Origin: Fulvivirga sp. | Lineage (GTDB): Bacteria; Bacteroidota; Bacteroidia; Cytophagales; Cyclobacteriaceae | Length of the DNA stretch: 43,749 bases | Direction: 5' to 3' | Assembly: GCA_028280565.1 (NCBI GenBank) | Contig: JANQLQ010000152.1 | Location: 1 to 43,749, forward strand | Part shown: positions 11,226-22,247 of the stretch, piece after piece | Numbering within the stretch: the stretch's first letter is position 1 | Layout: every line of letters begins with the position of its first letter | Notes under the pieces: generated by a model | Seen by the model: only the letters and a program-made list of their open reading frames with translations | The model's database searches: none | Told to the model about the DNA's origin: nothing | Position numbers and translations under genes: made by a program

Positions 11226-13073
11226 TCAGTTCACCACGTTATGCTCTGGCTGCTGGAAATCGCCGCGCAATTGTCGAAATCGCTTTCGCGCTTCTGCTAC
11301 GTATACACTACCTGGATATAGCTTCAATAAATCACGATAAACTTCCATGGCTTTATCCGGCTGGTCCAAGTGCTTGTCGTAGATCTCACCGACCATAAAA
11401 AATGCGTCGTCGCTGAGGATATCGTAGTCATATTCTTCTACGATCTTTTGTAGCAGGACTACAGCCGTATCAAACTTACCAAGTTTCTTTTGGATGTCTG
11501 CCTCAAGCCAAAGCAATTCATCCGTCAAACTATGGTCGGGGTAAGTTTCTTTCATTTTGTTGATGGCCTGTAAGGCTTCTTCAATTTTATTTTGAAAAAG
11601 CATCCTGTCAATCGTGGCGTATTCCCGCATGGCTGATTCCGAGCTGTCCAACGCTATGTTATCTTTTATAAGAATACTGAGGGCCATGGCATCGTTAGCA
11701 ATCTCGCGGGTGGTGGCTTCTTTCAAAATATCGAGGTGCTCCTGGGCCAATTGGAACTCTCCCTTATAATAAGAGAGTTTTGCATTTCTCAACTTGGCCT
11801 CGTAACCCAAACTCTCTTCTTTATGGGACTTTTCTACTTGCGAGTAGAGCAACGTAGACTCCCAAGGTTCTTCCGTTAACAAGTAAATATCCCCGAGGTC
11901 AAGTTTACTCTTGGCTTTTATATCTGCATTGGCGCGAGGAGTGTTAATGATCTCCTGCAAAATGATCTTTGCAGAATCTTTCTCATCCAAGTAAAAAGCG
12001 TGGAGCAACGCTTTATTCCTGAGGGCTTCCAGTGTGTTACGGGTCACTCCCAATTCATTGATAAATATATTATAATCATTGATCAAGTTGCGGATCTCGC
12101 GCTTATCGATAGGATATGTATTTCTTACTCTTTTTTCATAGGACCGTATGAGGTACATCTTGGCCAGCAAATAATTATAGGAACTAGGGTACTCACGGAT
12201 CACATAAGCAAATATTTTGATCGCGTTATCATAGTCATTGTTATCTAAGGCGATCAAACCAATGCTAATGCTCCGGGACCCTTCTGATTTTAACCGGCGG
12301 TCGATGGCACGAGCTTGTAGAAAGGCACCATAGAAGTTCTTTTGTTGTAAGTTTACCCATATCAGTAGCTCGCCATAAATTTCACTGTTAGGATCTTCCT
12401 GTATCTTATCATATAATAAGTTTTCCAAACTTTCGAGTTCTCCCGGTTTTGCCAACAAATTTTGTAACGTATTTTTTACATAATTGAGGTTCGAAGGATT
12501 CTGGCTCACATAATTCAGGTACTCTTCCACCATCTGGTCCTTCTCATTCAGTATACGATAAATGTTAGCCATTTCGAGTGAATAAGAATAGGGATTATTC
12601 AACGCTTTCCTGCCGGCGCTAAACATTTCTACAGCATAGTTAGGCAGCTGTTTATTAACAAAGTAATCTGCCGTGATCCTGGTCCGATAAACATCTTTGC
12701 GGATCTCCTGTATGATGTTTTTGAAATACTGATCGGCTTTGGCCTCATCGCCGCGTTCTTTTAGTACAAGGCCTTGATCGAGGCGGTAATAAAGATTGTT
12801 AGGGAATTTCTTCGCCAACCGTTTAATATACTTCTCTGCATTTTCATATTGGCCTTGTTCGAGCAGGAGGAAAAAATAGTTATTGTGGATAAGGGGTATA
12901 TTCTCATAATTTTTCGAAAGATTATCGTACAGCATAAGTGCTTTATCATAATCCCCTTGTGTATAGTATTCGTTAGCCAATTGGATATCTGAATTTTTTT
13001 GCGCCCACGCTGTGACCACCAATAGGCTGAACAAGAAAGCGAATATGATTCTTGTTTTTTGACTTATCCCCAT
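11226..13073 (-). CDS. Secreted tetratricopeptide repeat protein
   Basis: A 615-residue protein with an N-terminal signal peptide (about 1-24, ending TAWAQ) and TPR-type helical pairs through most of its length. Clear repeats are NEYYTQGDYDKALMLYDNL and QGQYENAEKYIKRLAKKFP near the start and FMVGEIYDKHLDQPDKAMEV near the end. The last part resembles the YbgF/BamD-like TPR group of the periplasm, so a scaffold role in envelope assembly is plausible but unproven. No catalytic motif is seen. Its start codon faces the candidate replication origin, so its promoter must overlap that region. Confidence 0.82.
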   Translation of the reverse strand: MGISQKTRIIFAFLFSLLVVTAWAQKNSDIQLANEYYTQGDYDKALMLYDNLSKNYENIPLIHNNYFFLLLEQGQYENAEKYIKRLAKKFPNNLYYRLDQGLVLKERGDEAKADQYFKNIIQEIRKDVYRTRITADYFVNKQLPNYAVEMFSAGRKALNNPYSYSLEMANIYRILNEKDQMVEEYLNYVSQNPSNLNYVKNTLQNLLAKPGELESLENLLYDKIQEDPNSEIYGELLIWVNLQQKNFYGAFLQARAIDRRLKSEGSRSISIGLIALDNNDYDNAIKIFAYVIREYPSSYNYLLAKMYLIRSYEKRVRNTYPIDKREIRNLINDYNIFINELGVTRNTLEALRNKALLHAFYLDEKDSAKIILQEIINTPRANADIKAKSKLDLGDIYLLTEEPWESTLLYSQVEKSHKEESLGYEAKLRNAKLSYYKGEFQLAQEHLDILKEATTREIANDAMALSILIKDNIALDSSESAMREYATIDRMLFQNKIEEALQAINKMKETYPDHSLTDELLWLEADIQKKLGKFDTAVVLLQKIVEEYDYDILSDDAFFMVGEIYDKHLDQPDKAMEVYRDLLKLYPGSVYVAEARKRFRQLRGDFQQPEHNVVN

Positions 13074-13074
13074 G

Positions 13075-13441
13075 TTAACATCTTATGTATTAATAAATAA
13101 TATAATATTAAAATTATTATTGATTATTAGTATGTGGATACGTGGAAAACTAATAAAAAAATAATTTGGCCATATGATTTGTTAATAGAAGGTGAATGTT
13201 TGATATTTTTTCCACAGGTTTTAATTCTATAAGTAATTGATAACCAATAACTTAATTTATTATCCACACAACATATCCACGCTGTGGATAACTGTCTAAA
13301 AAGGAAAGGCTGTGGAAAGAATATGAATAATTATAAAGCTTGTTCACGTTCCCCAACATTACACCATACTTCCCATCTACTAACGTCAGAAGTTCACACT
13401 TAGTTGTAAATTTTCCACAGGGAATCTACGGGTTATTAACA
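13075..13441. other. oriC: Candidate chromosomal replication origin (oriC)
   Basis: This 367-bp intergenic region is unlike the others in the window. Two perfect DnaA boxes lie in opposite orientation: TTATCCACA at 13260-13268 (+) and its complement at 13283-13291 (-). Boxes with one mismatch are at 13133-13141 (-), 13208-13216 (+) and 13411-13419 (+), with weaker CCAC/GTGG matches at 13141-13149, 13273-13281 and 13311-13319. The part from about 13081 to 13170 is almost purely A/T with TAATAAATAATATAATATTA-like wording, suitable as a DNA unwinding element. mnmG (gidA), a frequent origin neighbour, and two parS sites lie within 5 kb. DnaA-regulated promoter activity for the TPR gene is an alternative or additional role. 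Confidence 0.72.
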
Positions 13442-15202
13442 CTAAAAAGTGATAGGATCGGGTACAATTTCAAAGTTTGCGCGAATGGTGATCTCTTGCT
13501 CATCGGTGGAGCTGTAGTAAAAAAGTATGGGTTCCGGTTCTGTGTTGGTCAGTATGTTTCCTGCATCCCACTGGCCGTTCTGGTTACTGTCGATGAGAAT
13601 GCGCATCCGGTATGCGCCAGGTTCAATGTACTTGAACTCAAAGTTTGCTAAGTTGTATGTTTCCTGTACTACTTGATTTTTTGAATCTAGGAGTTGTATG
13701 AAGTAGTTTGGCTCATCAGTTTGAATTTCTACAATTATGGTTCCGAACTGCTCGGGCTTACTGAAGGACAACTCTTGCTTGACAAGTTGAGAGGAGTCTT
13801 GTTCGGCGCTAATGAAGCTGGCAGCTGCTAAATAGATATGGGGAGGCTGTTCCGGTTTGGGGGGGGACTCTTCAGAATTTAAGGAATCCAAAGCAGGTGA
13901 TGTAGCTCCTAGGGAGTCGGGCGTAGAAGGTAGTGATTGAGAGGCAGGTTCTTGAGGTATTTCTTCTTCTTGCTTTTCTTGAAACAGGCTTTTGTCTAAT
14001 AGGTAAGAGATCTCCAATTTGTCCTTGTAAAAATTCCAAGTAAAGTGTGTGCTGTCAAGCGGGTAAATGTGAAGGGAATCAATATAGATGTAGGTACTGT
14101 CAAAGTTGATACGCTGGACGGGCTTTGAAAAATTAATGACGCCGTTGACTAACCGGCGATCGGTGATGATTTTCTCCAAACTAAGGGGTGTCTTAAATTC
14201 TGCGGGTTTTCTCCTGGTCTCTTCGAATTTGACATAGGCTGTGTCAATGACTTCGGTTTGTAAACTATCATAGGCCCTTACAAATACGGTTAAACTGTCG
14301 GCAATGGGGATGTTGTTGTAGATATTAATGATTTGATGAGTGTCGTCAGAAAAATTGCTGCTAATACGGAGCTCTGGATGATCTTCAGCCTCCAGTGAAT
14401 AGGAAGTAACGTGTTTGTTGAATTTTAGGATATATACTGTGCCAGACTGCCGGTCACTCTGCATTTCAAGTTCTCTTACATCAAGATGTTGAACGGGTAT
14501 ATTTAGTTCGGTTACTGAAGTATCCAATTGCAATAATTGAGAAGAAAAACCATAGCTTTCGGATTGCGATTGGTTAGTCAGGTTTTTATTACCATCGGCA
14601 AAGGCATATATCTTGTATTGATTCACTTTGATATTTTCAAAGGAGTAGTAGCCTTCTTCATCGGTGCGAGTAAAATATAGCGGTGGGCCAGTAAAGATAT
14701 CGAGGGTGTCATCAAAAGTATAAAGGGCAACGGTGATATCCGTGCCGGGGTCGTTGGTAAGAATGTAGTGGATTTTACCGTCAATGGACATGGAATCAAG
14801 GTAGTGCCCCGTGGAAAATGCAAGTTTGAGGTTATCGGGTGCATTGCCTTCGGTGATGTCTTGGATAGCTTCACGGAAGTTGAAAGTATACGTGGTACTA
14901 TCAGATAGTGGATCTTCAAAATCTATGATGACCTTGTTTTTCCGATATCTCGGCGTATACTCGGCATCTATCCGGGGTGTGATAATAAGTTGCTCTTTAA
15001 AACTATTTAGTTTGATGGCTTCGTTAAAGGTTAATTCGACTTGCCGGGTCTCGACATTAAGCTCACCTTGGGCAGGCTTTGAAGATTCTAGTTCGGGAGG
15101 CTCTTCATCCTGGGGTCCACCGGTGGGCTGGGTTTGGTTAGCACATTTACAGAATAATAAGGAAAGCAGAACAAGACATGAAAACTTGAAGACGTTGAGC
15201 AT
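13442..15202 (-). CDS. Ig-like domain envelope lipoprotein-type protein
   Basis: A 586-residue exported protein. The N-terminus has a hydrophobic signal followed by FCKCANQTQPTGGPQDEEPP, the Cys plus GGP-D-PP arrangement typical of a widespread Bacteroidota family carrying an SbsA-type Ig-like domain (about 35-135: VELTFNEAIKLN). Beta-rich sequence follows, including a prealbumin-like stretch near 180-205, and a Pro/Glu/Ser-rich linker at about 425-465 (EEEIPQEP, SEESPPKPEQPP). The lipobox is not canonical, so lipidation is probable but not certain. It starts 3 bp after the methyltransferase gene and is probably the last gene of the mnmG operon. Function unknown; structural envelope role likely. 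Confidence 0.75.
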   Translation of the reverse strand: MLNVFKFSCLVLLSLLFCKCANQTQPTGGPQDEEPPELESSKPAQGELNVETRQVELTFNEAIKLNSFKEQLIITPRIDAEYTPRYRKNKVIIDFEDPLSDSTTYTFNFREAIQDITEGNAPDNLKLAFSTGHYLDSMSIDGKIHYILTNDPGTDITVALYTFDDTLDIFTGPPLYFTRTDEEGYYSFENIKVNQYKIYAFADGNKNLTNQSQSESYGFSSQLLQLDTSVTELNIPVQHLDVRELEMQSDRQSGTVYILKFNKHVTSYSLEAEDHPELRISSNFSDDTHQIINIYNNIPIADSLTVFVRAYDSLQTEVIDTAYVKFEETRRKPAEFKTPLSLEKIITDRRLVNGVINFSKPVQRINFDSTYIYIDSLHIYPLDSTHFTWNFYKDKLEISYLLDKSLFQEKQEEEIPQEPASQSLPSTPDSLGATSPALDSLNSEESPPKPEQPPHIYLAAASFISAEQDSSQLVKQELSFSKPEQFGTIIVEIQTDEPNYFIQLLDSKNQVVQETYNLANFEFKYIEPGAYRMRILIDSNQNGQWDAGNILTNTEPEPILFYYSSTDEQEITIRANFEIVPDPITF

Positions 15203-15205
15203 CAG

Positions 15206-16090
15206 TTACTTCCTTTGGATAACGTAGATTAGGCTTGAATATTCCAGTTGATGTTTTTTTGCGTAACTATTTGATTTTAAACCAGTTAAGATCGAATTAG
15301 CATATCCTTTAATACCGGTGCGCAAATATTTTTCGCTGAGCAATGATACATAAAATGAATCAAGCTTCATGGGTATCGTATCAATGATTTTGAGTTGATG
15401 TTTTTCGAACAGCTTGGCAATGGTGTGCTGGTCAAAGTGATATAAATGTCTTGGTACATCATAGGCAGCCCAGTGTTCTTTATAGTGTGTAGCGTCATAG
15501 CTTTTATGATTGGGAACTGCCACAAAAATTGTACCTGAATCGGTTAACAGTTTTTTGAGGGTTGAAATGTAACGATTGAGGTCCGGCACATGTTCTAAGA
15601 CGTGCCAAAGAGTGATCATATTGAAGGTATGATCACCGAGGTCGTCGAGCGATTGGTAAATTGTATCGCGCAGAAGTTCCGATGCGATCGCTCTTGCTCC
15701 TGCATCCGGTTCGACGCCGGTGGTTTTCCACCCTGCGCTTTGGGCCTGCTGTAGAAAGTGTCCTGTGCCACAGCCAATGTCTATGATATGACCTTTGTGC
15801 TGGTACTTGTGTACAAGTTTGATCTTTGAACGCAACGTAAAATGCCGCGCCAGTTTATAGGCAAGATTAATAGGATTGGTAGCTTTATCTTTGTGCGATA
15901 TGTAGTCTTGTGACTGGTAGTACCTAGGTAGACGTGCGGTAGTGGGCCTGGGATTGGTAAATAAAAAAGAGCAGTGGGTACACTGGGTGATGATAAAATC
16001 CTCTTGCGAGATACTATGGTCTTTACAAGTAAGGTAATTGACAAAACTATGACTACCGCATACAGGGCAGACCTCTACTTTTTCGTACAT
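15206..16090 (-). CDS. Zinc-binding class I SAM-dependent methyltransferase
   Basis: A 294-residue protein. The N-terminus has two CxxC pairs (CPVC at about 8-11 and CTHC at 37-40) that should bind zinc, followed by a Rossmann-like methyltransferase domain with DIGCGTG (104-110), the SAM-binding motif I, and ITLWHVLEHVPD as a motif-IV-like segment. This architecture occurs in bacterial methyltransferases acting on sugars or polyketide-like substrates as well as unknown targets; the substrate cannot be named. ATG 16090 is preferred over TTG 16102 because it sits just after the mnmG stop (1-bp gap), consistent with an operon. Confidence 0.82.
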   Translation of the reverse strand: MYEKVEVCPVCGSHSFVNYLTCKDHSISQEDFIITQCTHCSFLFTNPRPTTARLPRYYQSQDYISHKDKATNPINLAYKLARHFTLRSKIKLVHKYQHKGHIIDIGCGTGHFLQQAQSAGWKTTGVEPDAGARAIASELLRDTIYQSLDDLGDHTFNMITLWHVLEHVPDLNRYISTLKKLLTDSGTIFVAVPNHKSYDATHYKEHWAAYDVPRHLYHFDQHTIAKLFEKHQLKIIDTIPMKLDSFYVSLLSEKYLRTGIKGYANSILTGLKSNSYAKKHQLEYSSLIYVIQRK

Positions 16091-16091
16091 A

Positions 16092-17954
16092 TTATTTGGC
16101 AAGATAGACCATAAGAATGGAGATATCAGCAGGTGATACTCCGCTGATTCTTGAGGCCTGGCCTATGGTTTGTGGTTGTATAGAATTAAGTTTTTGCCTG
16201 GCTTCGGCAGATAAGGCAGTTACCGAGTTGTAATCAAAGTTAGACCTGATCTTCTTATTTTCTAGTTGTTCCATTTTCATGGCGAGTTGCTTCTCTTTGT
16301 CTATATAGTTTTCATATTTAACCTGTATCTCTACCTGGTCCAAAATGTCATCTGGGTAAACGGATAAATAGTCTTGCAGGCTAGGATGGATTTTTTTCAA
16401 ATCGTGCAAGCTCAATTCTGGTCGCTTCACGAGGTTGATGATAGGACCTTGCTGTTTAAGGGTGGCTGTATTTAAGCTTTCGAGTGCTTCGTTAATTTCT
16501 AGTGGGACCGCACGTTTGTGTTTAAGATCATTGAAAAGACGAGCAATGTCGTTTTTTCGATCTAGCATGCGCTCTAACCGCTGGTCAGTGGCTAGGCCAA
16601 TGGAGTGGCCTTTTTCGGTGAGTCGAAGATCCGCATTGTCTTGTCGTAAGAGTATCCTGAATTCCGCGCGAGAGGTGAACATTCGATAAGGCTCATCAGT
16701 TCCTTTGTTAATGAGGTCATCGATAAGCACACCAATGTACGCCTCGGAACGTTTTAGCACAAAGTCTTCGAGATGATTGATCTTTCGATGGGCATTAATA
16801 CCTGCGATCAACCCTTGACATGCGGCTTCTTCATACCCGGTGGTACCATTGATCTGTCCGGCAAAATAGAGGTTATCTATGTTCTTAGTTTCAAGGGTAA
16901 GCTGGAGCTGTGTAGGAGGAAAGAAATCATATTCTATAGCATACCCGGGCCTGAACATTTTTGCCTTTTCAAAGCCAGGTATTCTTGTGAGTGCTTCGTG
17001 CTGTACATCCTCGGGTAATGAAGTAGAAAAGCCATTCACATAGATCTCAATAGTATTCCATCCTTCGGGTTCAACGAATATTTGGTGGCGATCCCTTTCT
17101 GCAAACCGGTTGATCTTATCTTCGATAGAAGGACAATAGCGCGGTCCCAAACCTTGGATGCGTCCATTGAACATCGGTGAGCGATCAAACCCCGTTTCTA
17201 ATATTTCGTGTACGGTAGGGTTGGTGTAGGTAATGTAACAACTACGCTGTTCTTGTAGCGATGTAGTGTCCATGAAAGAAAACTTTGCCGGTTTGTTGTC
17301 GCCTTGTTGTTCTTCCATTTTTTGGTAATCTAAAGAACGTCCATCTACCCTGGGAGGTGTGCCGGTCTTCATCCTACCGGCTTCAAAGCCGTGCTGGATA
17401 AGTTGTTCAGTGATGCCGGTAGCGGCTTTTTCCCCGGTACGACCACCACCGAACTGCTTTTCACCAATATGAATGAGACCATTGAGAAAAGTACCATTGG
17501 TAAGCACGACGGCTTTTGCTTGGATCTCCAAGCCCATACCGGTGATAATTCCTTTCACCTTGCCGTTGGCTACCTTTATACCGGTGACCATTTCCTGCCA
17601 AAAGTCGATGTTAGGAGTCTTTTCTAAAGCAAGGCGCCATTCTTCAGCAAAACGCATACGGTCGTTTTGGGTCCTGGGGCTCCACATGGCAGGTCCTTTG
17701 GATTTATTGAGCATGCGAAATTGGATCATAGACTTATCAGAGATTATACCGGATAAGCCTCCTAGCGCATCGATCTCCCGTACAATTTGACCTTTTGCTA
17801 CCCCACCCATGGCAGGATTACATGACATTTGTGCGATAGTATTCATATTCATGGTGACCAGCAGTACCTTGGATCCCATTTGCGCTGCTGCGTGGGCTGC
17901 CTCGCATCCGGCATGCCCCGCCCCTACTACTATTACATCATATGTTGTAAACAT
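16092..17954 (-). CDS. mnmG: tRNA U34 carboxymethylaminomethyl-modification enzyme MnmG (GidA)
   Basis: A 620-residue FAD enzyme that, with MnmE, installs the carboxymethylaminomethyl group on U34 of certain tRNAs, using methylene-tetrahydrofolate and NADH. The dinucleotide-binding VVGAGHAGCEAA (9-20) is followed by the family signature QMSCNPAMGGVAKG; GTPPRVDG, YFAGQINGTTGYEEAA and the helical C-terminal domain (INLVKRPE) are all present. Full length. The gene is often next to bacterial replication origins, here about 2.7 kb from the DnaA-box cluster. It heads a tight three-gene - strand group with the methyltransferase and Ig-like protein. Confidence 0.97.
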   Translation of the reverse strand: MFTTYDVIVVGAGHAGCEAAHAAAQMGSKVLLVTMNMNTIAQMSCNPAMGGVAKGQIVREIDALGGLSGIISDKSMIQFRMLNKSKGPAMWSPRTQNDRMRFAEEWRLALEKTPNIDFWQEMVTGIKVANGKVKGIITGMGLEIQAKAVVLTNGTFLNGLIHIGEKQFGGGRTGEKAATGITEQLIQHGFEAGRMKTGTPPRVDGRSLDYQKMEEQQGDNKPAKFSFMDTTSLQEQRSCYITYTNPTVHEILETGFDRSPMFNGRIQGLGPRYCPSIEDKINRFAERDRHQIFVEPEGWNTIEIYVNGFSTSLPEDVQHEALTRIPGFEKAKMFRPGYAIEYDFFPPTQLQLTLETKNIDNLYFAGQINGTTGYEEAACQGLIAGINAHRKINHLEDFVLKRSEAYIGVLIDDLINKGTDEPYRMFTSRAEFRILLRQDNADLRLTEKGHSIGLATDQRLERMLDRKNDIARLFNDLKHKRAVPLEINEALESLNTATLKQQGPIINLVKRPELSLHDLKKIHPSLQDYLSVYPDDILDQVEIQVKYENYIDKEKQLAMKMEQLENKKIRSNFDYNSVTALSAEARQKLNSIQPQTIGQASRISGVSPADISILMVYLAK

Positions 17955-17976
17955 CTCTTGTATTCTTATTTGCTAC

Positions 17977-17992
17977 TGTTCCACGTGGAACA
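17977..17992. promoter_or_regulatory. parS centromere-like site 1
   Basis: A perfect 16-bp palindrome TGTTCCACGTGGAACA, identical to the ParB-binding parS sequence known from Pseudomonas and close to the core known from Myxococcus. It lies 22 bp upstream of the mnmG start. ParB nucleation here would drive origin segregation. Part of the mnmG 5' region, so ParB binding could also affect its expression. Confidence 0.88.
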
Positions 17993-18076
17993 CTTGAAGT
18001 ATGAGTTTGTGATAGGAATGAGTGTCATTTCTTTTCAGCCATCTGAAATTTTCAGTTCATCCATCTCTCATCAATA

Positions 18077-18092
18077 TGTTCCACGTGGAACA
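18077..18092. promoter_or_regulatory. parS centromere-like site 2
   Basis: A second perfect copy of TGTTCCACGTGGAACA, exactly 100 bp from the first and followed by the same CTT. Both lie in the 155-bp gap between ybeY and mnmG. Two copies so close to gidA strongly favour a true chromosomal parS cluster over chance. Confidence 0.88.
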
Positions 18093-18109
18093 CTTCTAAC
18101 ACCCCTTAA

Positions 18110-18547
18110 TTATAGATTGTTCCTGGAAGTCCGCAAAGATAGGCAAGCCTCTTCTTTTTTACGCATACGATCTTTTTCTTCGTCACTTTTGTCGCTATAT
18201 CCCATAAGATGTAATACCCCGTGAATGATCACCCTATGTAGTTCCTCGTCGAGTTCCACATCAAGTTGATGGGCATTTTCTTTTACTCGCTCTATGCTTA
18301 TGAAAATGTCACCTTCTAAAAGGTTATGGCTATCTGATTGGTCAAAGGTGATAATGTCTGTAAATGTATCGTGGTCTAAGTAAGTTACATTTACTTGGTG
18401 GAGATACTTATCTGAACAAAAAATGAAATTCAGGCTCTCTATGGAGTAGCCTTCAGAGCCCGCTATGGTCAATATCCAGTCCGCAGTATGCTGCTCACCG
18501 GGAAGCCGGAAATCTACATCCTCCCGGTGAAAATGGACTTGGGACAT
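18110..18547 (-). CDS. ybeY: Endoribonuclease YbeY (rRNA maturation)
   Basis: A 145-residue YbeY-family metal-dependent endoribonuclease needed for 16S rRNA 3' maturation and ribosome quality control. The catalytic region reads IIHGVLHLMGYSD with His109 and His113; in the usual HxxxHxxxxxH motif the third His is here Asp119, followed by KSDEEKDRM. A GYxDK ending in place of GYDH is, to my knowledge, common in Bacteroidota YbeY proteins, so I do not read it as inactivation. The ATG shares one base with the stop of the upstream ATPase gene, indicating coupling. The two parS sites follow the gene. Confidence 0.9.
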   Translation of the reverse strand: MSQVHFHREDVDFRLPGEQHTADWILTIAGSEGYSIESLNFIFCSDKYLHQVNVTYLDHDTFTDIITFDQSDSHNLLEGDIFISIERVKENAHQLDVELDEELHRVIIHGVLHLMGYSDKSDEEKDRMRKKEEACLSLRTSRNNL

Positions 18548-18948
18548 TAATTGATGTAAAAATTGAGCTCTACTACTTTTCCATCCTGCTTAAAGGCTAC
18601 CTCGTCGCAAAGGTGCTTCATTAAGAATATGCCCCGTCCACCGGGCTTTTTTAAGTTTTCCGGGGCCGTGGGATCTGGCAGGTTTTGATAGTCAAAGCCG
18701 CTGCCCTCGTCAGAAATAGTAAATTTGATCTGGCTGTCTTCTAATGTGAGGGCAAGTGCTACATTTTTTGATTTATCGTTCCGATTTCCATGATGGATAG
18801 CGTTATTCACGGCCTCCGTCACCGCTATCATAATATTACCATAAATGTCATCATTAAGCTTGAACTTTTCTTTGGCGTTGTCAATAAAGCTTTCGATCAT
18901 CCTGATATTCTCAGCAAGTGACGGTATTTGTATCTTTATACTATTCAT
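18547..18948 (-). CDS. RsbW/SpoIIAB-like anti-sigma-type ATP-binding protein
   Basis: A 133-residue single-domain GHKL ATPase (HATPase_c_2). The N-box is EAVNNAIHHGN, the G1 box DEGSGFD and the G2 region GGRGIFLMK, all in family order. Relatives are serine kinases that phosphorylate anti-anti-sigma factors or bind sigma factors. No sigma factor or STAS partner is encoded nearby, so its target is unknown. It lies 5 bp after DUF4175 and overlaps ybeY by one base, so the three genes form one transcript. Confidence 0.85.
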   Translation of the reverse strand: MNSIKIQIPSLAENIRMIESFIDNAKEKFKLNDDIYGNIMIAVTEAVNNAIHHGNRNDKSKNVALALTLEDSQIKFTISDEGSGFDYQNLPDPTAPENLKKPGGRGIFLMKHLCDEVAFKQDGKVVELNFYIN

Positions 18949-18953
18949 TCTGA

Positions 18954-21900
18954 TTAATTAGTGGCGTCGTTTCCTATTCTTTTGAAATATTCGTTTACTT
19001 CTTTTCGATAGTAGGGATAGAGTTTAGGAGGTATGGTCTTTAGTAATTCTATTTCTTGTTCTTTCAGTTTGAAATATTCTTCAAAGGCTTTAGGGACTTG
19101 TTTTTCATAGTCTTTAGCCGTCTCCCCTTTCCGCTCTTCGTCTTTCTCTCTTTCTCTCAAGGCATCCTCCGCCTCTAAAAGCCGTGTCAGTATTTCTTTT
19201 TGCCGCATGATGGTTTCTTGGGTGATCTGCTTATTGACGAGATCCACCTCGGTTTCCTCCATTTTCTCTACTAAACCTTCCCCGGGTTTTTGTCCATTAT
19301 CACCTTCCCCGTATTTCTCTTGCATTTCTTGCAGGGCCTGTCGTATCCTTTCTTGTTCAGCCGCTAATTTAGCCAACTCTTCTGATAACTGCCTGCCCGA
19401 TTTACCACTGTCTTTTAAGTCTTGTATCTGCTGGTTGAGTTGTTGCTGGAGTTCTGCCATAGACGGCGTTTTGGGTTTTCCTTTCCCCTTTTGCGGTTTA
19501 CCCATGGCATCGGCAAGGCTTTCCTGCATTTGCTTTAAAACATCATCTAGTAGTAAGGCTAAATTATTCATAGCCGTCATGGTAAATTGCTGCTCGGAAA
19601 CGGCCAGTGGTTTTTTACGTTCTTTGATAGCTTCTACACTTTTATCCATGTGATCATTCATCTCACCTACTTCGCGTGTAACGAATGAAGCCAAAACAAA
19701 TACGCGGTTGGCCAATGACAGCAGGCTATCTTCTACGATCTGGGCGTCGTCCTTGAGCTTCAGCTGTTTTTGAGACAGTTCTACAAAACGCGGGTCGCTT
19801 TGTTTTACTTGGCCAAATTCGTTCATCAACTCTTCCTGGTCAAACGACAGCTTTAGCAGGTTATTCACAATGTCCCTTAAATCATCCAGGTTTTCCTGTG
19901 TCATAGAGATTTCCGAATTGCTTTGCATTTGCTGCATTTGCTGGGCCATTTTCTGCATCTGTTCCTTGGCCTTTTGCTGGGATTGGGACGATTTCTTCTT
20001 TTTATTTTGTTCCAGTGATTCTTTGCTTTGCTGCTGTTGGTCTTCTACCTCTTGTTGTTCTTCATCCATGTTGGGCAAAGATTCGGGTTGTTGTAGTTCT
20101 TGGTTCATTTCTTCAAGTTCCTCCATCTTTTCCTGGAATTCGTTGAATTCTTCCTGTAATTCTTCCTGCTCCTCTGCTAGCTCCTGTGCATCGGTATCCT
20201 TTTGTTCTGTCTTTTCTTGTAATTCCTCCTGTTGCTCGATCTGCTCGTTGAGGTCATTGATAGATTCGTTCAGCTCATACTCAAACTGCATTCGTTTAAA
20301 AAGCTCTAAGGTACGTTCAAGCTCTTTTTCTAAGTTGTTTTCTTTTTTGTCCAGCCGATCGAGTATGTCTTGGATGTCCTCGATATTCTGCTGCTCGTCC
20401 AATAGCTTTTGTAGTTCTTCGTAGAGCTTTTTTGTTTCATCATCTAAAAGATCATTCATTAGCTCTTGAAGCTTTTGTACCTTTTCTTTGATCCTTTCAT
20501 TTTGCGGGGTGAAACGCTCTCTTTTCTGATCTGTATTTTTATTTTGTTCCTTAAGCTCTTCGATCGCCTTGTTCAACTCCTCTCTTCTTTGTAAAATATC
20601 TTTTATTAGGTTCTCATCCTGCCAGTTCATTTCTTTCTTGCCTTTTAAGCGATTTTCCGCTTCTTCGATCTCTTCTTTTAATTCCTTGGCCTCTTGTAAG
20701 GTTTTATCTATATCTTTTTGCGTGCGTTGGGTCTCGCTGGTTACCTGCTCACGAAGCTCTTTTTTTGAGGGAACTTTGAAGGAATAAATGCCAGTTTTAG
20801 TTGATTTTCTTCCATTTACCGCGTCATTGTCCCATACCTGCATATAGTATCTTATTTGATTCCCATCTTTGACATATAGAGAATCAAACTGCCACTGGTA
20901 ATAATACCGCTGGGCATTTTGCGAACGGTTTATGGGTATGTCAAGGGATTCGAAACTCTTTGCTGAAGATTCAAACTGGTAAAAAAGCTTGAGCTGTGTA
21001 AGCCCGTAATCATCTGAAATGTCACCACCTAAAGCTACGAAACTGAACAGTGTAGTATCCTGGAAAGAGTTAACGGAAATTTCAGGGTATTTATCAGGAA
21101 CAACTTCTATGTTGTAAACAATCGGTTGTTTGTTTTCACCGAATTCGTTTTGAAGCTGGATGGTGTATTGATCTGAATTTTTTATCGTTTTCTCTAATAC
21201 GAAAACATCGTCCTCTAGGCGCCGAGGTATAACGCTTGTATCCTCTGTAGCGAAGCGTAGACTTACTTCGTCGGTAGTGGTGGCGCTGAGCTCCCAGCGA
21301 ACGTTTGTTCCTTCCGGGATCTGTAAGTTGCCAACGTTACTCAACCTTTCGTTTTTCCGTTCTAAATACTTAGGATAATCTAAATATACATTGAATGTTT
21401 TAAGAGCCGGGCGGCTTACTACATTAACACGATAGGAAACTGACTCAAAGCCGGCCGCTTCAAAGCGTAGGGTCTTTGGATCTTGTATCTTCCTGAAAAC
21501 GTATTCATACAACCCGTCGCCAGCGGCAGCCATTTTAAACTTCCGATCCTTGCTTACCAGGTAGGCATTCAAAGGCAGGGCCTCCCCCACTAATTGTAAG
21601 CGGACAGTAAAATCTTCATTTTTGAAGGCCTGCAGCTCATCGTTGAGCAGCTGAAAATTAAAGGGTGCTACGGGTTTAAAATCTTCGTTGAATTTAATGA
21701 TCCGTGTGGTGCTGGAGGTAATAAAGCCCGGGCTCACGATAAACAAAACGAGCAGCACTAAGAAAGGCGCAGCCAGGTACTGCATATAGCGCCTGTTATT
21801 TTTTAATGGTACCGCTTCTTCAAACACAACGCCTTCCAATGCCTTGCTTTTTTGGGCAATGCCCGCTTCAACGAGGGAAGGATCGTGGTACTTAATTTGC

Positions 21901-22247
21901 TTTAACTGTATGATATTCAGTAACTTATCTCCTACTTGTGGGAAAAAGCTCCCAACATTTTTAGCTGCTATTTCGTCCTTCATGCTATCATCACTTTTAA
22001 GCAGCTTGTAAAGCGGGGTGATTACATAACGCGTTAAGAAATACAGCGTGGTGAGGATCAATACCAGCAGCAGTACCCCACGGACCAACGTATCGAATCT
22101 CATAGAGTACTCCAAGGTGTTGATGACCAAGAACATACTCAGGATGAAGGTCAGTGAGATCAACGACCCGCGGATCGCTAAATTCACGAAATACTTCCTT
22201 TTGTACTTTTTAAGCCTGCTGTAGATTATTTTTTCTTGATCACTCAT
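18954..22247 (-). CDS. DUF4175 family giant membrane-anchored coiled-coil protein
   Basis: A 1097-residue protein. Three hydrophobic segments (about 20-45, 53-75 and 155-176) anchor it in the inner membrane; the first region ahead of TM3 is short and probably cytoplasmic. After TM3 come beta-rich, Ig-like extracytoplasmic segments (about 190-490), then a very long Glu/Gln/Lys-rich coiled coil (about 500-900) with low-complexity runs such as QQMQQMQ. The tail (about 900-1097) is also helical and charged. It matches the Bacteroidota DUF4175 family, whose role is unknown; a structural or force-bearing envelope function is an inference from the coil. First gene of the group with the RsbW-like protein and ybeY. 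Confidence 0.88.
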   Translation of the reverse strand: MSDQEKIIYSRLKKYKRKYFVNLAIRGSLISLTFILSMFLVINTLEYSMRFDTLVRGVLLLVLILTTLYFLTRYVITPLYKLLKSDDSMKDEIAAKNVGSFFPQVGDKLLNIIQLKQIKYHDPSLVEAGIAQKSKALEGVVFEEAVPLKNNRRYMQYLAAPFLVLLVLFIVSPGFITSSTTRIIKFNEDFKPVAPFNFQLLNDELQAFKNEDFTVRLQLVGEALPLNAYLVSKDRKFKMAAAGDGLYEYVFRKIQDPKTLRFEAAGFESVSYRVNVVSRPALKTFNVYLDYPKYLERKNERLSNVGNLQIPEGTNVRWELSATTTDEVSLRFATEDTSVIPRRLEDDVFVLEKTIKNSDQYTIQLQNEFGENKQPIVYNIEVVPDKYPEISVNSFQDTTLFSFVALGGDISDDYGLTQLKLFYQFESSAKSFESLDIPINRSQNAQRYYYQWQFDSLYVKDGNQIRYYMQVWDNDAVNGRKSTKTGIYSFKVPSKKELREQVTSETQRTQKDIDKTLQEAKELKEEIEEAENRLKGKKEMNWQDENLIKDILQRREELNKAIEELKEQNKNTDQKRERFTPQNERIKEKVQKLQELMNDLLDDETKKLYEELQKLLDEQQNIEDIQDILDRLDKKENNLEKELERTLELFKRMQFEYELNESINDLNEQIEQQEELQEKTEQKDTDAQELAEEQEELQEEFNEFQEKMEELEEMNQELQQPESLPNMDEEQQEVEDQQQQSKESLEQNKKKKSSQSQQKAKEQMQKMAQQMQQMQSNSEISMTQENLDDLRDIVNNLLKLSFDQEELMNEFGQVKQSDPRFVELSQKQLKLKDDAQIVEDSLLSLANRVFVLASFVTREVGEMNDHMDKSVEAIKERKKPLAVSEQQFTMTAMNNLALLLDDVLKQMQESLADAMGKPQKGKGKPKTPSMAELQQQLNQQIQDLKDSGKSGRQLSEELAKLAAEQERIRQALQEMQEKYGEGDNGQKPGEGLVEKMEETEVDLVNKQITQETIMRQKEILTRLLEAEDALREREKDEERKGETAKDYEKQVPKAFEEYFKLKEQEIELLKTIPPKLYPYYRKEVNEYFKRIGNDATN

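Follow-up and report, generated by a model that had tools for sequence, protein, structure and literature searches.

In bacteria, the chromosomal replication origin (oriC) is frequently found adjoining dnaA. In Melioribacter roseus, a member of the Bacteroidetes/Chlorobi group, the origin was assigned between dnaA and dnaN (PMC3534657), and published figures for Porphyromonas gingivalis set oriC at dnaA (PMC5771137). According to authors citing DoriC, oriC commonly lies far from dnaA in the Bacteroidetes (PMC4755523). In their account of the first chromosome of Prevotella intermedia OMA14, Ori-Finder predicted an origin that resembles the locus described here, because multiple DnaA boxes sit at a GC-skew transition and dnaA is not nearby (PMC4755523). 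It differs in being a prediction for a different lineage of the phylum. Cytophaga hutchinsonii belongs to the same order as the present bacterium and has oriC plasmids in use (PMC5288383). The oriC of Escherichia coli lies between gidA and mioC (PMC4446571). Likewise, mnmG (gidA) is near the origin proposed here, but it begins 2.65 kb away, past an Ig-like and a methyltransferase gene. Titles and abstract openings of the open-licence literature on oriC and mnmG in Fulvivirga and Cytophagales hold no description of this origin address, and nothing in the open-licence literature surveyed joins DnaA-trios, oriC, and Bacteroidetes. The locus breaks no rule because origins far from dnaA have already been reported for the phylum; it is a well-supported further case.

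The window, i.e., the whole stretch of DNA analysed (43,749 nucleotides), is one entire contig of a 9.05-Mb draft assembly in 337 contigs. NCBI taxonomy places Fulvivirga in Fulvivirgaceae, Cytophagales, Bacteroidota. A preliminary description of the window had proposed a probable chromosomal origin in a single intergenic region of 367 bp, with no dnaA nearby, gidA 2.7 kb away, and parS 4.7 kb away. The region is indeed a single gap between a TPR gene and an Ig-like gene, and its measured length is 368 bp. The GC content of the gap is 28.5%, compared to 43.5% for the window. With a probability of about 0.95, this gap is the oriC of this Fulvivirga-like bacterium. The proposal draws support from computed DnaA boxes, an AT-rich stretch, conservation that includes one tandem box pair per genome, the proximity of parS-type sites, GC skew in relatives, and dnaA loci that have no box cluster.

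DnaA boxes and the AT-rich stretch of the gap

Five TTATCCACA-type DnaA boxes are present in the gap, two exact and three with one mismatch (Table 1). Dinucleotide shuffling of the gap, repeated 5000 times, never gave five or more boxes of zero or one mismatch (mean 0.22, maximum 3) and gave two or more exact boxes once. In other words, the gap contains a cluster of DnaA boxes beyond chance, as is expected of an oriC. Over the whole window, 21 matches to TTATCCACA with zero or one mismatch were counted, and away from this locus no 368-bp stretch has more than one. A looser pattern, TTATNCACA, with one mismatch allowed was not enriched across the window (48 matches against a mean of 43 expected); the boxes being clustered in the gap, the signal lies in the cluster and not in the total. 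Exact TTATCCACA boxes are also commoner in the 9.05-Mb genome than their reversed control, with 125 occurrences against 66. Among the first 100 listed of these 125, two within 400 bp of each other were found only on this contig. The two perfect opposing boxes and the three one-mismatch boxes are those of the preliminary description, and the box density of the genome, which it had offered as a check, agrees as far as seen.

Table 1. Positions of features in and around the gap (window coordinates)
Feature	Position	Strand	Sequence	Remarks
TPR-repeat protein gene, left neighbour	11226..13073	-		Pfam TPR_6, E 1.1e-23
DnaA box inside TPR gene (site F), possibly an outlying part	12884..12892	-		exact; at most one mismatch in 11/14 genomes
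DnaA box (site E), overlaps TPR start codon region	13064..13072	+	TTATCCCCA	one mismatch; 7/14 genomes
Proposed oriC (the gap, which contains the box cluster and the AT-rich stretch)	13074..13441	.		boxes vs shuffles, AT content, skew flanking the orthologous gap in 4 complete relatives, conservation
AT-rich stretch, probable DNA unwinding element	13080..13132	.		window's most AT-rich 50-mers and longest AT-only run
DnaA box (site D2), adjoins AT-rich stretch and points into it	13133..13141	-	GTATCCACA	one mismatch
Weaker DnaA box (site D1), one-base overlap with D2	13141..13149	-	TTTTCCACG	two mismatches
DnaA box (site C)	13208..13216	+	TTTTCCACA	one mismatch; at most one mismatch in 13/14 genomes
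DnaA box (site B2)	13260..13268	+	TTATCCACA	exact; at most one mismatch in 7/14 genomes
DnaA box (site B)	13283..13291	-	TTATCCACA	exact; at most one mismatch in 13/14 genomes
DnaA box	13411..13419	+	TTTTCCACA	one mismatch
Degenerate box (site A), right after Ig-like stop codon	13433..13441	+	TTATTAACA	two mismatches; no more than one in the 13 other genomes
Ig-like (Big_5) protein gene, right neighbour, locus marker	13442..15202	-		Pfam Big_5, E 1.1e-18
Methyltransferase gene	15206..16102	-		Pfam Methyltransf_23, E 5.5e-27
mnmG (gidA)	16092..17954	-		Pfam GIDA, E 6.4e-167
parS-type palindrome	17977..17992	.	TGTTCCACGTGGAACA	named by consensus
Second parS-type palindrome	18077..18092	.		named by consensus

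An AT-rich element adjoins the boxes, which is a further mark of an oriC, and its predicted role is unwinding. The highest AT content over 50 bp in the window (94% AT) is reached by the 50-mers beginning at 13080, 13083, and 13084, and the window's longest AT-only run spans 34 bp (13088-13121). The stretch 13081-13130, previously described as AT-only, is AT-rich at 92% AT but not free of G and C. Nine alignment columns within 13110-13132 are invariant across 14 genomes of the genus. The AT-rich stretch sits immediately before the TPR start codon, so the TPR gene may have its transcription start within or next to the unwinding element.

How might such a stretch be opened? In the basal unwinding system described for Bacillus subtilis and others, DnaA-trios with the consensus 3'-GAT-5' come after a box (PMC8287927). 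The scheme was scored here as three or more DnaA-trios coming no more than 16 bp after one or more DnaA boxes. The window fits it with three trios (CTA-ATA-ATC) that come after D2 with a 2-base spacer. The gap resembles the published system in that tandem boxes aim into an AT-rich stretch a few bases off; it differs because the boxes overlap by one base and because just 5 of the 14 genomes had a run of at least three trios when spacers of 0-5 bases were allowed. With trio runs in this minority of genomes, the filament and unwinding step is a predicted one.

The most likely sequence of events would be as follows. DnaA, encoded by a distant gene, would bind the fixed box array and, from the tandem pair D1/D2, spread onto one strand of the AT-rich stretch. 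The filament seeded at D1/D2 would open the duplex, and helicase could then be loaded in both directions. ParB, acting at the two parS-type sites about 4.8 kb rightward, may gather the newly copied origin region for segregation.

Conservation within the genus

Fifteen same-genus genomes including the bacterium's own were compared, and the gap was aligned in 14 of them. The Ig-like gene is present in the same number, missing only from G001, a 950-contig draft. The best-conserved 17-mer of the gap is 13133-13149, with a mean column identity of 0.96 compared to 0.66 for the whole gap in the 14-gap alignment. It is the tandem box pair itself, on the - strand with its one-base overlap and aimed into the AT-rich stretch. 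The pair sequence, TTWTCCACGTATNCACA, occurs exactly once in 13 of the 15 genomes, each time just past the end of the Ig-like gene, and its reversed control matched in none of the 15. The two genomes without it are G001 and G011, the latter with a variant pair, TTATCCACGTAATCACA, in the corresponding gap. A single copy per chromosome that is conserved in relatives is what an oriC should display.

Further evidence comes from the spacing of the boxes, counted from the Ig-like stop codon in 14 genomes. A box with at most one mismatch was found at +1 or +2 (site A) in every genome but this one, whose own site is degenerate. Likewise, 13 of 14 genomes carry such a box at +150 to +153 (site B) and at +226 to +229 (site C). 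The D1/D2 pair lies at +293 to +296 and +301 to +304, again in 13 of 14; the pair of G011 is ~10 bp nearer the stop codon. At the threshold of one mismatch, D1 was recognized in 8/14 genomes and D2 in 11/14, and most of the others have two mismatches. The background was ~0.0015 boxes per 8-position window (8 matches in 42455 positions of the Ig-like gene and its upstream region). Box places thus stay within ~3 bp while the boxes themselves change or weaken. The 11 neighbouring Ig-like proteins that were aligned are just 44-69% identical to that of the window. The conservation of boxes and gene order in relatives, also put forward at the outset as a check, agrees with an origin at the gap, the box places being nearly fixed across 14 genomes. 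This nearly fixed spacing is a concrete architecture that can be tested in vitro with purified DnaA.

GC skew, parS-type sites, and the distant dnaA gene

An excess of G on the + strand had been noted at 15.5-17.3 kb. Measurement showed that the excess peaks at 13-16 kb, falls off at 16-17 kb, and has disappeared by 17 kb. As had been described, the + strand is rich in G although the genes on this side are on the - strand: the codon-position-3 skew (in + strand terms) of the five genes at 13.4-18.9 kb is positive throughout, from +0.13 to +0.43. The left side is mixed, as it had looked by eye, with values between -0.06 and +0.12 in seven tabulated genes. The cumulative skew within the window, raw or at position 3, climbs sharply from the gap onward but reaches its minimum elsewhere. 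Taken by itself, the skew of the window is not decisive because gene orientation dominates the raw skew and the left side is weak. The genes from the Ig-like gene via mnmG and ybeY to a large coiled-coil gene (13442-22247) are all on the - strand although they lie near the proposed origin. Genes to its right, mnmG among them, would therefore be transcribed against a rightward fork.

Further evidence came from four complete single-contig congeners (G004, G005, G008, and G014), in which the check by GC skew was carried out on 20-kb samples, 39 per side. The skew was negative in 32/39 samples left of the gap and positive in 34/39 to its right, that is, it switched from negative to positive as expected at an oriC. 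By genome, the left side was negative in 10/10 (G004), 6/9 (G005), 9/10 (G008), and 7/10 (G014) samples, and the right side was positive in 7/10, 9/9, 9/10, and 9/10, respectively. The switch is blurred in G004, whose raw skew is negative at +10, +35, and +150 kb and whose position-3 skew is mixed up to +300 kb (negative at +35, +75, and +300 kb). G008 has a positive skew at -10 kb, and G014 and G005 have three positive left samples each. When the position-3 skew of the four congeners was pooled within 45 kb, in 3-kb bins of which two on each side were sampled in part, the cumulative minimum (-710) fell at the gap, and a second dip (-633) was present at +12 kb.

The two palindromes in Table 1, which we take to be parS from the consensus of such sites, are 4.7 and 4.8 kb away, measured from mid-gap. 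The corresponding pattern, TGTTNCACGTGNAACA, has two sites in 13 of the 15 genomes, one in G011, and none in G001; its reversed control matched in G009 only, once per strand. The tandem pair and parS lie on one contig in 12 of the 13 pair-bearing genomes, the nearer site being 4.7-4.9 kb away, and on different contigs in the draft G003. Genome-wide counts and distances together indicate that the sites are confined to one neighbourhood per genome. Such a concentration of parS-type sites is expected near an origin, and ParB binding is predicted for them.

The bacterium's own genome has one Bac_DnaA match, on another contig; DnaA is thus encoded. In the complete congeners, dnaA is 0.90 (G004), 0.97 (G005), 1.32 (G008), and 1.21 Mb (G014) from the gap, in line with the earlier remark that dnaA is not nearby. 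Weak second Bac_DnaA matches are present in G003 and G010, and dnaA was not found in G013.

Could the origin nevertheless lie at dnaA, as in many bacteria? The frequency of that arrangement and the assignment in M. roseus favour it, but the dnaA loci of 14/15 same-genus genomes, own included, show no box cluster, with a maximum of two boxes per 368 bp. Furthermore, skew samples flanking dnaA, which lies 0.9-1.3 Mb to one side of the gap, are positive on both sides in G004, G005, and G014; in G008, the sample at +1000 kb is about zero (raw -0.005, position 3 -0.03) and that at +1500 kb is positive. An origin at dnaA was rejected on these box counts and this flanking skew, and its likelihood is negligible. 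A different reading treats the gap as a DnaA-titrating or regulatory locus, either datA-like or a DnaA-controlled TPR promoter, with the origin elsewhere nearby. Clusters of DnaA boxes also have titrating and regulatory roles in known bacteria, the AT-rich stretch could double as a promoter given its place immediately before the TPR start codon, and the skew of a single genome, G004, places the switch no better than to within tens of kilobases. However, the pooled position-3 minimum of the four congeners at the gap, the confinement of parS-type sites to its neighbourhood, and a tandem pair that is unique per genome in 13/15 make a purely regulatory locus very improbable.

A third proposal refines the assignment of oriC to the gap and does not exclude it: the origin may be larger and bipartite, reaching into the TPR gene via the box at site F. 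This box is kept with at most one mismatch in most genomes and is exact in 7. However, its distance from the Ig-like stop codon ranges from +537 to +560, a spread of 23 bp that exceeds those of sites A, B, and C, and it encodes part of the TPR protein, so conservation of the protein may explain why the box is kept. A bipartite oriC appears rather unlikely on these grounds. The preferred reading, an oriC that occupies the gap, places the origin in an order where dnaA gives no clue to it. With the origin placed, there would be a correct reference point for origin plasmids, coverage-based growth-rate estimates, and genome starts.

The locus in other Cytophagales

A search by the Ig-like family led to 27 named loci, of which 7 are from Fulvivirga and most others from other Cytophagales. 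Counted from -50 to +700 relative to where the Ig-like match ends, 24 of them have at least three boxes, as do 15 of 18 when nine loci that duplicate same-genus contigs are left out. The three that fall short are L132, L135, and L136, which is truncated. Box density elsewhere in the named loci is 0.06-0.65 per kb. The Ig-like protein itself was found in 117 of 118 sampled genomes of the order.

One genome from each of 20 other families was also analysed. At least three boxes within 450 bp after the Ig-like gene were found in 13 of the 20. Six families have at least eight (f5, f9, f11, f12, f16, and f17), and the weakest have three only (f6, f7, f13, and f19). A cluster of three boxes at the end of the Ig-like gene is absent in 7 of the 20 (f2, f4, f8, f10, f14, f20, and f21); in G023, the best 450-bp count was 2 boxes. 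Gene order was kept to a similar extent in the 20 fetched stretches, with mnmG upstream in 15 (in f3 at the edge only) and a TPR gene downstream in 11.

Much of the order probably inherited this origin address from a common ancestor, but the address is not universal. A more specific proposal, to which we would give even odds, is that the origin of the Cytophagales ancestor already lay between the Ig-like and TPR genes beside mnmG. The address would have been kept under selection while the boxes changed, and so would, in the Fulvivirga lineage, a fixed orisome geometry, which counted from the Ig-like stop codon has boxes at +1, +151, and +227 and, at ~+295/+303, a pair overlapping by one base. 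If the address is ancestral, the Ig-like gene could be used to locate oriC in draft genomes from this order.

For four complete genomes from other families, skew was measured in ten stretches per genome. G131 (f15) shows the switch clearly and G118 (f11) weakly. There is no switch in G057 (f12), where all ten samples are within 0.02 of zero, or in G018 (f5), where raw values close to the gap are positive to its left and about zero to its right and the position-3 skew favours no side (L188-L197 and L208-L217 are the G018/G057 samples). Despite this, 13 boxes are present within 800 bp after the Ig-like stop codon in each of these two genomes. Boxes are also dense in L175 (G022) and L177 (G118), which have 29 and 23 boxes in 10.5 kb, 12 and 14 of them within 800 bp after the Ig-like stop codon.
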